Source: Polyrhizophydium stewartii | Taxonomy: Eukaryota; Chytridiomycota; Chytridiomycetes; Rhizophydiales | Assembly (NCBI GenBank): GCA_027604665.1 | Contig: JADGIZ010000028.1 | Span: 1-40,091 of the forward strand | Length of the DNA: 40,091 nt | Direction of reading: 5' to 3' | In this document: piece by piece, positions 11,989 to 17,436 of the stretch | Layout: the number at the start of each line of letters is the position of its first letter | Position numbering within the stretch: the stretch's first letter is position 1 | Position numbers and translations under genes: made by a program | The notes under the pieces: model-generated | Database searches by the model: none | The model's input: only the letters and a program-made list of their open reading frames with translations | Told to the model about the DNA's origin: nothing

Positions 11989-13172
11989 ATGGTGCGCTCG
12001 AAGCCGTGCCGCGGCACTCGACCGCTGACAGCGTTTCATGATGGCGATGGCCACAACACACGGCGCTCACAAAGGCCGGCGATCTATATCCGTGAGCGCG
12101 AGGCCACGACACGGAGCATGCGCGCGGACTAGCTGACACGGGAGCCCAGGCTCACGACGTGCGGCATCTGCCAGGGCGTCATTATCGATGCAACCACCAT
12201 CAACGAGTGCCTGCATTCCTGTAAGCTCGTCCGCGCATGACATTCGCGGTTACGCTCTATTCTTACGCCCGCTGCTCCGCTCGGCGTTCCAATTGCAGTC
12301 TGCAGGTCTTGCGCAGTCAAGGAATGCGGGCAGCCGGACTCCAAGTGCCCCACATGCGGCTTTCTGCTCGGGGCGAACCCATTCGAGTTTCTCCGCCCAG
12401 ATCCGACGTTACAGAGCGTGATCATCAAGCTCATGCCCGGGCTCGTCGAGCGATGCAAAGAGATGGAACTCGAGTACGCAGCTGAATGCGCGGCCAAGTC
12501 CTCTGCCAAGACTCCGAGGAGAGGCCGCCATGGTGGCCGCGCTGACGGCGCAAAGCTCAACTCATCCTCGACGTCACCCGCAAGATCACCTGCCCGATCC
12601 CCAGCGAGGTCATCCACCAGATCGCCCCCCAAATCCCATTCGAGATCTCCCGCGAGGTCGCCGGTCGCATCGCCGGCTCGCTCGGGCATGATATCCTCTG
12701 CCAGCTCACCCAAGTCGCCGCCAAAACGCGCACGCGGCCTCAGCAGCAGCAGCATCGGAAGTGCTGCCGGCGAGGACCACGCTGGTGACGGCGATGACAA
12801 CTTGCCAGTGGCGATGGTCCTGTTCACAGTCGAGGCCGATCCCGAGTGAGAGTCGTGTCTCGGATTGGACTGAGCGAGATACGAAACTGACGTTGAACCA
12901 CGTGTCGCAGGCTTCTGCAGGCTCCGCCTCCCGATATCAAGTCTCTCGGCGACGGACCTCGTCTGTTCAAAGCCAAAGCGACAAGCACAGTCAAGACAGT
13001 CAAAAGGCATCTGTCCAAGCTGATTGGCCTCAATGCGCATGCTGGCATCGTTCTCACGTTCCGTAAGCAATGCCTCGGCGACGAATGGACGCTGGAGTAC
13101 GTTTCTCGCACCATGTCGGCCGACGATGGCGATCCTATGGCTCTCAGATACTCTTTCGCGCCGCAGCTCTGA
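11989..13172 (+). CDS. Polycomb-group RING finger (PCGF)-like protein, RING plus RAWUL
   Basis: Resembles PCGF/Psc/BMI1 subunits, the RING1 partners in PRC1 (histone H2A ubiquitin ligase). Model exons: 11989-11991, 12075-12091, 12150-12220, 12299-12845, 12911-13172, all in phase, 299 residues. The N-terminal RING is C3HC4 with the PCGF-type core: LTTCGIC, then VIIDATTINECLHSFCRSC, then CPTCG. Human PCGFs read LMC-LC and IDATTI-ECLHSFC at the same place. A ~120-residue Ser/Pro/Arg-rich linker with repeated SPARSP follows. The last ~75 residues match a RAWUL domain: ATSTVKTVKRHLSKLIGL, then LGDEWTLEYV, then PMALRYSF. The RING and RAWUL exons are firm. The 3-nt ATG exon and 17-nt microexon are inferred because they restore the family's DLxP-L-T-C lead-in. 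A different E3 family is possible, but the RING-RAWUL pairing is specific. Confidence 0.85.
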
Positions 13173-13323: not shown

Positions 13324-14805
13324 TCAGTTGCCGGTCTTCTTGACTAGATAGCGGCGGCGGGCTGTGGCGAAAACTCAAAAGTCAGCCAACATGGAAGACC
13401 AGAGATTGCGGGTGCTGGTGCAGCCCTCACCGTTGATGAACCAGTTGTTGAGCTGCGTCAGATTCAGCCCCGTGACGTTGCACATGTGCTTCTTGGCGTC
13501 TTCCGACGGATAGGGGTGCGACCTGTGCGCATCGAGCCAGTCACGCAGCACCTTGTGGACTTCCTTGGAGTGATTGGGTCGCTTGGGCTGGCGAGCGAGG
13601 GCGAGCGCAGCAGTGGCTTGTGAGCCACGAGTCGCAGGACAGCTCGGTCACGGTTTCTGGCTTACCTTTGCATTGGAGCCGGGCGAGTCTGGCCCCGCCG
13701 ATCGCGCAACGTCCAGCGAGTACGGCATCAGCGCCTTCTTGGACACTGAAGACCCCTCGGTCTTTGCACTTAGCAGCCTCGACTCGCCTGCCGCTTGGCG
13801 AATGCTGCGGCCGAGACTCGCTGCACTCGGGCTGCCTGACTGCGTCGACCAGGGCAGAAGCGTTGAGGAGTTGGAGGAATGGCCCAAAATACCGCCAGTT
13901 CGATTGAGGTTGATCGACCCTGACAGAAGCCGGACGTCGCTGGATGTGCCATGCGAAGCCGTCGAGTGGGCCTGGCCTGCAACCCGAACTTGATCGCGCG
14001 GCTCGAGGCCCGCGAGCGACTGCGGTCTGGTCGGGACGCGGATAGGAAAGGGTGGGCGGTCGGAATCGTGGCGGCTTACGAGCGTCGTCGACGAGAGGAA
14101 CTTCATCGGGCCGGGATGCGAAGCCGCTGGCGGGAATAGTGGGAATTGCGTGTCGCTGCTGGTTGTCCTGCCGAGAGCGTCGGTCCTTGCGTCGGCAGAG
14201 CTGGAAAAGTGCGTATCAAGCTCGCTGCGGTCCCTTGACGCTGCAAGTGATGTGTTGGTGCGGCTGACGGCGGCTTGACTGTCCTGCGTGCGAGCCACGT
14301 CGTAGTCGAGCCGGCTGTGGGTTGCAGTCATGCGCCGAGTTGTGCTTCGGACCCTGAACGGCGAGAGCCGTGTGAACTCGGACTCGGAAACAAAGCCGTC
14401 GACGCCCTGCTGGGCCGCCTCGTCTGCGTCGATGCGCTGCTCGCAGGCGTCGACGATTTGGTGCACAAGCACAACGACGGCGGCGAGAATCGCGCGATCG
14501 AGGCCCTGGTCTGCGGCACCTGCGCGAGCGCCGAGCTCCGAGGCGGCGCCGCTTGCGCCGCGGCACACCATGCCGATTGTCACCCCGTACTCGCAGAGCA
14601 GCTCGCCCACAAGCAACAGCGTCGCCTTGAGACTGTCGACCCGCATGCTTCGCTGCGCGTCGTCGCGTAGCTGCCATAGCTCGAGCACGAGCGAGTAGGC
14701 GGGATGCTCGATGAGGCAGGCGCCGCGCTCTTGGGCCGTTGCTGGTGCGGAGCCAGCGCGCTGTGGTGTGGCATCCACGCCATGGGGGCAAGTCTCGACG
14801 GTCAT
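13324..14805 (-). CDS. TALE-class homeodomain transcription factor
   Basis: Three phase-consistent exons: 14805-13666, 13587-13431, 13361-13324, giving 444 residues. The homeodomain is at the extreme C-terminus (about 381-440). It contains the TALE loop extension (HPYPSEDAKKHM) and the recognition helix LTQLNNWFINARRRYL with canonical Trp48, Phe49, Asn51 and Arg53. An intron interrupts helix 3 just after Asn51. The N-terminal ~380 residues are not recognisable. They include an Ala/Val-rich predicted helical stretch around residues 60-115 and then long Ser/Thr-rich disorder. The gene is divergent from another homeodomain-like gene 1.05 kb away. Family assignment is firm. Target genes and biological role are unknown. 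Confidence 0.93.
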
Positions 14806-15859
14806 TCTGTGCGTGTCGGCTGTCGTTCGAGGCCCGAGTTGCGTCAGGAGGTGCCGGAAGCGGGCGATTGGCGGTTGGGGCAGCCGAGCGAGATGGTGAC
14901 AGGCACCACGGACAAGTCAGAAAATAAGCGGGGAGCCCGTCGTCTTTTGGCTGCCAGGCGCGGGGACGCAAGTGGCCGACGCTGCGAAACTGACAGGACG
15001 GCATTGGAGGACGGACGGGCGGCGACCGCTCGCGTCGCGAGCCAGTCAAACGCGTCGCCGGCACAAACGCGCTCAGTCTGAGCTGCCCCGGCTGACGACG
15101 GCGCCGACCGGGCGAGCGCCTCCCTCCCCGCGCCTGCACCGCTGCACCGCAAGGGCGTGCAACAGGAGCACATTGGCTCACTCTATGCGTGCTCCGTGCT
15201 GCGCTCTCGGCGGCCACAGGCGGTTCGCTGCCAGCTCTCTCAGTGAGAATCGCCTCTTCCCAAACCGACTCAGTCGAGGCCGCGGGCCGCCCCCGTCGCC
15301 ACGCACAGCTGATGCGGGCCGTCCTTGAACAGTGCCAAGGACGATTGTTGTGCTCTGTGCGTCGGCTCCAGAGCGTCCCCCGTTGCGCACCATACCAGAG
15401 CCGCACGCCTCGCGCGCTGTGCCGCGGTGCACCGACATCCCCGCCCCACTCGCCGCGCCGCATAACTTGCGCTCCAGAGCGCATATTGACAGCCCATGTG
15501 ATCGCCAAATGGTTGCTTGACGGACGCAGTGGCACCAATGACAGCTCGCCTGGTTTTGCAGCGGCGCCAAAGTCAGTCGCTCACTTTGGTGACTTGGGTC
15601 TGGCAACCGAAACATGGGCTCGACTCCCTTTCGCCGGCATCGACAGACAGACGGTCGGGCTCTCTGATTGTCAACCGGCTCTCAGAGACCACTGCAAGTC
15701 TTTTTGGCCAGCGCCGTACCCTGCCAGACCCAGCCGTGAAGCGCCGCCCAAGTCGGTTAAAGCGCGACGCCAGTCAAACGCCGCCTCGCCCCCCTCCCCG
15801 CGACGCAGCCGGACGTTCCAGAGACACACCTACTCGCAAACACAATACCAACGGCAGCC
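14806..15859. promoter_or_regulatory. 1.05-kb shared upstream region of the homeodomain pair
   Basis: The largest intergenic space in the window, with no recognisable gene. Long open frames on both strands here have Arg/Pro/Ala-rich translations typical of random GC-rich DNA. No tandem repeats or transposon ends were seen. It presumably drives both divergent homeobox genes. Confidence 0.5.
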
Positions 15860-17436
15860 ATGCAGGACGCCAGGCGATTGCTGGGCGAGCTGCGCAGGCA
15901 GCTCGGTCTGATGCCGATGACGCGAGCCGAGGCCGAGTCGATTCTGCGCAAGGACGTCTCGGGCTTTCGCTCAAGCCTGCTTGCTCTTGTTACGCCGGCG
16001 GGAGCAACTCAAACACCGGCAGTGACGAACAGCACGCCTGCAGAGGACCATGTCGATGTGCTCGCAACTCTGCTCGGCGATGGGATGGGCGATGTGGCCG
16101 CTGCCGCAACGCCAATGTCCTCGTCGACACAGGCCTCGTTTACTTTCTCGTTTACGTTCAGTGACTCGACGGACGGCGGAAGCGGCGGCGGCGGAGCACC
16201 CACACCGACGTCTTCGCTGCTTGAGACCTCACTCCGAGAGCTCAATCTATCGACCAGCGCACTTGATCCGCCGTCGACACTCACCCCGAGTTCGTCCGAG
16301 TCATCGATTGCGCTTCCGCCGTTTGGCGTCGTGTCGGCGGTCGCAAGTGCCGACGCAGAAACGACCATTACGACTCGCGGCTTCCGGTTCACGCAGATGG
16401 TCCACAACGACTGGGATCCGCGCACGCGCAACCAGCTGCTCGTCATCCGCCACGTCTATCTCGAGCAGCGTGAAGCGCTCGTTGCGAGGCTCACCGACGC
16501 CTGGCAGCAGATGCGTGCAGAGTTTACGAGGAACGACACGCTGCTGCCCATAAGCCAGGCAACGATGGAAGATCTGGACAAGAGCATCACCTCACTGATC
16601 TCGCACACGATCCTGCTTCTGCAGTACCACGCGCTCGGGCGAGTCTTTGAACTCGCGGGCACGAGCATCCCGCCAGAGTGCGTGCTTCCGGAAGAGGCAC
16701 TCAAGATCGAGTCCGTGTTCAAGAAGCGTGCCACCGAGGCCATGAAACGTGCCAGCAACGGTGACTTGCTGCTCAGCTTCTCCCAGATCGCAGCGCTCGA
16801 AACCAACACTGCGGCCGAGGGCGTGTGCTCCAAGCTCGAGAAGAAGCGACTCGCGGCCAAGACCGGGCTGGAGTTGAACGAAGTTGCGATTTGGTGAGTG
16901 CTGCGCGTGTGCGCGAAAAGCCGAGGCCGACTCTGACAGACTTGGCTGGTGCACTGCAAAGGCTCGAAGCCAAGCGCGCTTCGGCAGTGCATGGGAACAT
17001 GTACCGCATCGCTCTCGCAGCCGAGCCGCCAGCTGCTTCGGGAAACAACTCACAAGACGCGGCGGCAGACGGCGCATTCGAGCTGCCTCCGATGCCAGGC
17101 CTCGATAGGGCTGATTCCGTGCTGACCGCGGCGCTGCAACAGCCTGCTCTTCACCCAGCGCCTGGTGCACTTGGCCAGGATTCTCTCTTTGAAGCGCTGC
17201 AGATACTGCCGATGGCGTCCGGAGCGGCAATGACCTTTGGCGACCTCACTCAGATCCCGCTTCAGGCGTTTCCACCGCTCGGCATGCTCTCCCTTGACCA
17301 AATGCCTTTGCCCGTCGACTTGAGCTTCCCGACACCGCTCCCCTTTGCGATTTCTCTGGAGGCGCCGATGCAAGATACCGATCCAGCACGCGAGCCATCC
17401 GGCAAAGCCGCGGCGGGCTTCGGGGCGACGCAATGA
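15860..17436 (+). CDS. Divergent homeodomain-like protein with activation-like C-terminus
   Basis: Two exons, 15860-16893 and 16962-17436, encode 502 residues. Near residues 326-352 the sequence EKKRLAAKTGLELNEVAIW, followed after the intron by LEAKRAS, matches homeodomain helix 2-turn-helix 3: Trp48 and Arg53 in register, Leu at 49, Ala at 51 in place of the near-invariant Asn. The intron has a consensus GTGAGT donor, a CTGAC element and a CAAAG acceptor that keeps the frame. The N-terminus has a basic amphipathic helix (about 1-30), then Ser/Thr/Gly-rich disorder (about 50-165), then a conserved-looking helical block (about 175-320). The C-terminal ~120 residues are Pro/Leu/acidic, like a trans-activation region. 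No close family was recognised. The homeodomain call rests on helix 3 and on the head-to-head homeobox neighbour. Confidence 0.6.

Follow-up and report, generated by a model that had tools for sequence, protein, structure and literature searches.

The window analysed here, the whole of contig JADGIZ010000028.1 (C28; 40,091 nucleotides) of the chytrid Polyrhizophydium stewartii, contains two adjacent and divergently transcribed homeodomain (HD) genes, HD1 on the minus and HD2 on the plus strand, which flank a shared region of 1,054 bp. The best reading of this arrangement, to which we accord about an even chance, is that the two genes constitute a co-regulated pair, the products of which act as a heterodimer with HD1 reading the DNA and HD2 serving as its partner. 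At the level of sequence the evidence comprises the two gene models, the two domains, the divergent layout, the loss of asparagine 51 (N51) from the homeodomain of HD2 and an excess of the hexamer TGACAG between the genes. P. stewartii is described as a saprophytic relative of Batrachochytrium dendrobatidis, closer to it than Homolaphlyctis, with 9,378 genes and an updated assembly of 31 Mb (PMC12204190); the assembly searched here is partial, derives from one strain and amounts to 12.86 Mb in 690 contigs.

Both gene models are independently built predictions from the sequence (Table 1). In a codon-bias map of the window, the gap between them is the longest separating any segments that score at least 12. 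A further common feature is an intron that interrupts the recognition helix, in HD1 within codon 52 after the first base and in HD2 within codon 48, that of W48, after the second. An earlier note on this DNA had proposed, for the interval 13324-17436, a TALE (three-amino-acid loop extension) homeodomain gene on the minus strand and a diverged homeodomain-like gene on the plus strand, transcribed away from the largest intergenic gap and each with its recognition helix cut by an intron; the ends of our models coincide exactly with this interval, and the layout, the introns and, as detailed below, the nature of both genes agree with that description. Joo et al. describe a '48(2/3)' intron as common to TALE genes (PMC6219170), and the codon-48 intron of HD2 appears to occupy this position.

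The HD1 model is identical in all 444 of 444 residues to a public protein (P0001) entitled 'Homeobox protein Meis3 [Polyrhizophydium stewartii]'. Its homeodomain, situated at the extreme C terminus, matches the Pfam family Homeobox_KN above the cut-off (E=8.8e-18, 64.3 bits) and carries the three-residue loop extension with PYP (HPYPSE in the sequence) that places it in the TALE class. A second conserved region lies near the N terminus: comparison with a protein of Entophlyctis helioformis (P0003) gives 58 of 187 identical residues in this region and 40 of 59 in the homeodomain, the intervening stretch being poorly conserved between the two HD1 sequences compared. On scanning the N-terminal domain against Pfam, no family, MEIS and KNOX included, was matched at E<=10; its start, with an HP motif, bears a weak likeness to MEIS/PKNOX-type proteins (hhalign score 21.7 over 30 columns), with an E value of 0.02 for a single comparison, yet a probability of 2.4%, and an E value of 0.87 in global mode. 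None of 200 column shuffles attained this score (best 19.5) and the reversed sequence gave 14.2. MEIS/KNOX homology is recorded by Joo et al. for Apusozoa, Ichthyosporea and Choanoflagellata but not for Fungi (PMC6219170). Another public gene model of HD1 (P0002; HK105_004193, 247 residues) lacks 197 residues from the middle of P0001; it was considered as a second HD1 allele, being 75% identical by BLAST, and rejected, since it is the same sequence minus those residues. It is likely that one of the two annotations is wrong, or they may represent isoforms. A search of viral contigs with the HD1 alignment yielded 33 pattern matches, none of which was confirmed.

The homeodomain of HD2 is a more distant one. 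At E<=10 the protein matches two Pfam families alone, both of them homeodomain families and both below the cut-off (Homeodomain, 13.8 bits, E=0.053; Homeobox_KN, 12.5 bits, E=0.14), while residues 281-370 on their own match Homeodomain with E=0.0044. Thus on the profile searches that the earlier note had proposed HD1 falls above and HD2 below the cut-off, and the want of any homeodomain signal in the plus-strand protein, which that note had taken to tell against the pair, was not what was found. Shuffled versions of residues 281-370 matched no homeodomain family (0 of 9); four of the nine matched unrelated families, with E values down to 0.029, so that the Pfam evidence by itself is thin. Further evidence comes from comparisons with individual homeodomains. 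A query of 60 residues from HD2 matched 29 PDB sequences at E<=10, every one of them a homeodomain (best E=0.051); the five alignments displayed contain no gaps, implying that HD2 lacks the TALE loop. Against a canonical homeodomain on contig C597, 15 of 43 residues are identical without gaps, with a score of 65 that none of 2000 shuffles reached (maximum 42); the score against HoxB13 was likewise reached by none of 2000, that against a homeodomain on contig C343 by 15 and that against HD1 by five. As judged from these sequence comparisons, the HD2 homeodomain is real, eroded and non-TALE. Erosion is most apparent in the recognition helix, where F49 is replaced by L, Q50 by E and N51 by A, with W48 and R53 retained. 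Residue N51 is near-invariant among homeodomains. The C343 homeodomain (L004, 14937-15080 of that contig, in an open frame of 379 residues) is also atypical, reading WFAHRR with N51 changed to H, and is thereby, besides HD2, a second gene with an altered N51 in the assembly.

The region between the genes contains four copies of TGACAG, all on the plus strand, at 14897, 14991, 15487 and 15539. This hexamer we take to be a target of TALE proteins (MEIS, TGIF, KNOX). For 1,054 bp the rest of the window predicts 0.24 copies, a stretch of 200 kb drawn from the assembly 0.32 and the 120 GC-rich kb within the latter 0.37; dinucleotide shuffling of the region raises the expectation to 0.61, and 12 of 5000 shuffles reach four copies. 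No overlapping 1,054-bp window contains four copies, either in the GC-rich 120 kb (0 of 10,740) or in the entire 200 kb (0 of 3,580), and among the 180 hexamers composed of the same letters TGACAG alone attains this number. The excess would be consistent with autoregulation, lending it support, not proof. Another hexamer, CGGGGA, occurs five times within 14806-15859.

How could such a pair operate? In the heterodimer reading, HD1 and HD2 would form one regulatory unit. HD1 would be a TALE transcription factor combining an N-terminal domain for binding a partner with an intact helix for reading DNA, and HD2, a non-TALE protein whose DNA-reading helix is eroded, would most likely be its dimer partner; the proline- and leucine-rich tail of HD2 may hold an activation region. 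Both genes are presumably transcribed from the single promoter region, where HD1 could bind the TGACAG sites, and by occupying its own promoter it would ensure both co-expression and feedback. The most likely function of the putative heterodimer would be to switch a life-cycle or developmental programme, be it that of the zygote, the resting stage or the diploid state. Homeodomain heterodimers are reported to switch life-cycle programmes in Chlamydomonas, Dictyostelium and basidiomycetes (PMC6219170).

Several results weigh against the heterodimer reading, and some of these bear directly on the nature of HD2. In an AlphaFold model of residues 170-344 (pLDDT 70.7, computed from one sequence and with the recognition helix missing) a single helix spans the positions of helices 1 and 2, and among the best 50 of 376 PDB matches to the model at E<=10 there is no homeodomain, nor any match at E<=0.001. 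Furthermore, residues 180-380 found no protein relative at E<=1 among 3392 candidates, their own protein included; this search was a weak one, in that the N-terminal query from P0003 likewise found itself only and missed its known relative P0001, probably because of a word filter. Exon 2 of HD2 scores only 12.8 in the codon-bias map, where the threshold is 12. For HD1, no PDB entry matches the predicted structure of the N-terminal domain at E<=0.001, a comparison that could not succeed because none of the listed solved MEIS relatives spans the N-terminal part of MEIS. Finally, with respect to the promoter, TGACAG ranks second in enrichment among the 660 hexamers present, behind CGGGGA, and the statistic is post hoc, the sites having been noticed by eye before they were counted.

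One question then is whether HD2 is a homeodomain protein at all, or whether its likeness arose by chance. The Pfam scores below the cut-off, the modest E value of the best PDB match, the fold of the predicted model and the failure of a six-frame PF00046 search of the assembly to recover HD2 at E<=10 would all accord with a chance likeness, which we nevertheless hold to be very improbable given that every PDB sequence matched is a homeodomain, that the shuffles fall short of the scores against C597 and HoxB13 and that the alignment with C597 is ungapped. A less extreme possibility is that HD1 is a general developmental TALE factor and HD2 an independent homeodomain gene undergoing decay, which adjoins it by chance. 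The source name of HD1, Meis3, would be in keeping with such a role, as would the erosion of HD2, its weakly coding second exon and its apparent lack of annotation: since HD1 and P0003 recovered themselves in protein searches, whereas HD2 did not, HD2 is probably missing from the public proteome or very differently modelled there. However, exon 1 of HD2 comprises an open frame of 378 codons with a codon-bias score of 55.3 and the GT-AG intron preserves the frame, while the adjacency of two homeodomain genes is itself rare. Three homeodomain genes in the assembly searched, HD1 among them, exceed the Pfam cut-off, and we estimate that the chance of a homeodomain neighbour for a given homeodomain gene is about 0.2% even with ten such genes in the genome. 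Pairing by chance is thus unlikely, and the reading of HD2 as a decaying bystander seems to us rather doubtful.

The heterodimer reading has a more specific relative, namely that the locus is a true HD mating-type locus, at which HD1 and HD2 exist as alleles or idiomorphs and an active dimer arises only across the parents, after gamete fusion. One TALE and one non-TALE member are present, and HD2 has no relative that was found, as would be expected of a fast-evolving protein. On the other hand, the recognition helix of HD2 is non-canonical, with A in place of N51, and no second copy, haplotype or paralogue of the locus, and hence no second allele, occurs in the assembly, a weak point in that 12.86 Mb were searched against 31 Mb reported; the right flank gives, besides itself, one match of 38 bp. 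Moreover, the sole match in the assembly to Peptidase_M3, which we take to be the family of MIP, lies on contig C40 and not on C28, itself 40 kb long, although the two loci may be linked beyond the ends of that contig. Linkage to MIP is usual for the HD mating locus in Basidiomycota. The layout corresponds to that in Ustilago and Coprinopsis, whose HD1/HD2 loci are divergent (PMC2866331), and resembles the pairs of Paramicrosporidium (PMC5701793) and Rhizophagus (PMC11414155); yet in Paramicrosporidium a similar layout is reported without heterozygosity or allelic divergence (PMC5701793). The likeness to an HD-type mating locus asserted in the earlier note is therefore borne out by the paired divergent layout and impaired by the location of the Peptidase_M3 gene and by the loss of N51. 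Any link of the pair to mating is a matter of inference, and we regard a mating-type locus of this kind as unlikely. Somewhat more doubtful still is a bolder version, in which a true chytrid would here have its sex-determining HD locus, with a TALE/non-TALE pair inherited from the fungal ancestor, where HD2 gave up base recognition, HD1 alone reads the DNA and pairing of HD1 with HD2 decides compatibility. Searches of the 12.86 Mb for STE3, HAP2 and SPO11-type (TP6A_N) proteins gave no match, from which, with 31 Mb reported, absence from the genome does not follow; the STE3 search had no positive control and that for HAP2 a control below the cut-off only.

What would the pair mean for chytrids? 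A comparative chytrid study with ascomycete Mat1-1/Mat1-2 queries reported no significant matches and called a conclusive answer about the sexual cycle 'elusive' (PMC6572847). HD pairs are already published for Basidiomycota, Rhizophagus, Paramicrosporidium and Microsporidia; a chytrid HD1/HD2 locus did not appear among the literature matches listed, a search which covered titles and the beginnings of abstracts, with preprints and most subscription papers outside it. The interval of 4 kb described here makes the question of mating control in chytrids directly testable.

Table 1. Features of the HD1-HD2 locus, with positions in the window; gene models are predictions.
Feature	Position	Strand	Remarks
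HD1, TALE homeodomain gene	14805-13324	-	444 residues; exons 14805-13666, 13587-13431, 13361-13324; ATG at 14805, stop ends at 13324; two introns (78 and 69 bp), both GT-AG
HD1 N-terminal conserved domain, residues ~28-175	14281-14724	-	candidate dimerization domain
HD1 TALE homeodomain, residues ~381-442	13333-13587	-	WFINARRR as recognition helix, interrupted by an intron in codon 52; PF05920
Shared divergent promoter region	14806-15859	no strand	1,054 bp between HD1 and HD2
HD2, diverged non-TALE homeodomain gene	15860-17436	+	502 residues; exons 15860-16893, 16962-17436; ATG at 15860, stop ends at 17436; single intron of 68 bp, GT-AG
HD2 homeodomain, residues 298-357	16751-16998	+	WLEAKR for WFQNRR; codon 48 split after base 2 by the intron at 16894-16961
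HD2 C-terminal tail, P- and L-rich	16999-17433	+	candidate activation region, from sequence only

The genes on either side converge on the pair. To the left, at about 11.9-13.17 kb on the plus strand with a stop at 13172, lies a gene read by eye as PCGF-like, with RING- and RAWUL-like segments; its frame 12241-12846, the one exon frame scanned, gave no Pfam match. To the right DAP3, on the minus strand, ends 105 bp from HD2. Of the 247 open frames in the window 30 were scanned, 19 of which have a Pfam match at E<=0.01, the families comprising nucleoporin, GAS8, Ulp1, Vta1, DAP3, B9, C2H2, GBBH/TauD, Ku, bromodomain, Ras, CIR (below the Pfam cut-off) and isocitrate lyase. With regard to the assembly as a whole, the first 10 kb have a GC content of 31-43% in eight of 20 sampled contigs (C1, C2, C3, C4, C10, C17, C18 and C20) and of 61-68% in the other 12; the low-GC starts of these eight large contigs may reflect mixed organisms in the assembly or unusual regions.

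Among known systems, HD1 is like the MEIS/KNOX (MEINOX) TALE proteins in that its homeodomain follows an N-terminal domain opening with an HP motif, and differs from them in having no Pfam MEIS/KNOX match and the low hhalign probability given above. Basidiomycete HD1 proteins are generally taken to be TALE-like, the canonical recognition helix of HD2 in a fungal HD locus is WFxNRR, and in basidiomycetes it is the homeodomain of HD2 that is indispensable. In having a TALE-like HD1 with an intact recognition helix the locus resembles a fungal HD mating locus, and the pair may work in a similar manner; with HD1 as DNA reader and HD2 as partner, the roles would be the opposite of those in basidiomycetes. 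Joo et al. class the basidiomycete proteins bW and bE as non-TALE (PMC6219170), which makes a TALE member less secure as a trait common to the two systems. The b locus of Ustilago and the A locus of Coprinopsis are likewise composed of two divergently transcribed homeodomain genes (PMC2866331), whereas here the HD1 homeodomain is C-terminal, HD2 lacks N51, Peptidase_M3 is elsewhere and the host is a chytrid. In the microsporidian Encephalitozoon cuniculi clustered homeodomain genes have been proposed as candidate mating-type loci, the isolates studied being reported without idiomorphs (PMC2866331), and in the rozellomycote Paramicrosporidium saccamoebae the HD1 and HD2 homologues PSACC_01945 and PSACC_01946 show a MAT-like organisation, with allelic divergence reported as absent (PMC5701793); both are likened here by description, not by sequence. 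The putative MAT locus of Rhizophagus irregularis, with an HD1-like and an HD2 gene, has itself been likened to the basidiomycete MAT and differs in having many alleles among isolates, its role in mating being disputed in the same paper (PMC11414155). Set beside these systems, a divergent TALE/non-TALE pair in a chytrid would suggest that this architecture is ancestral to fungi and not a basidiomycete invention.

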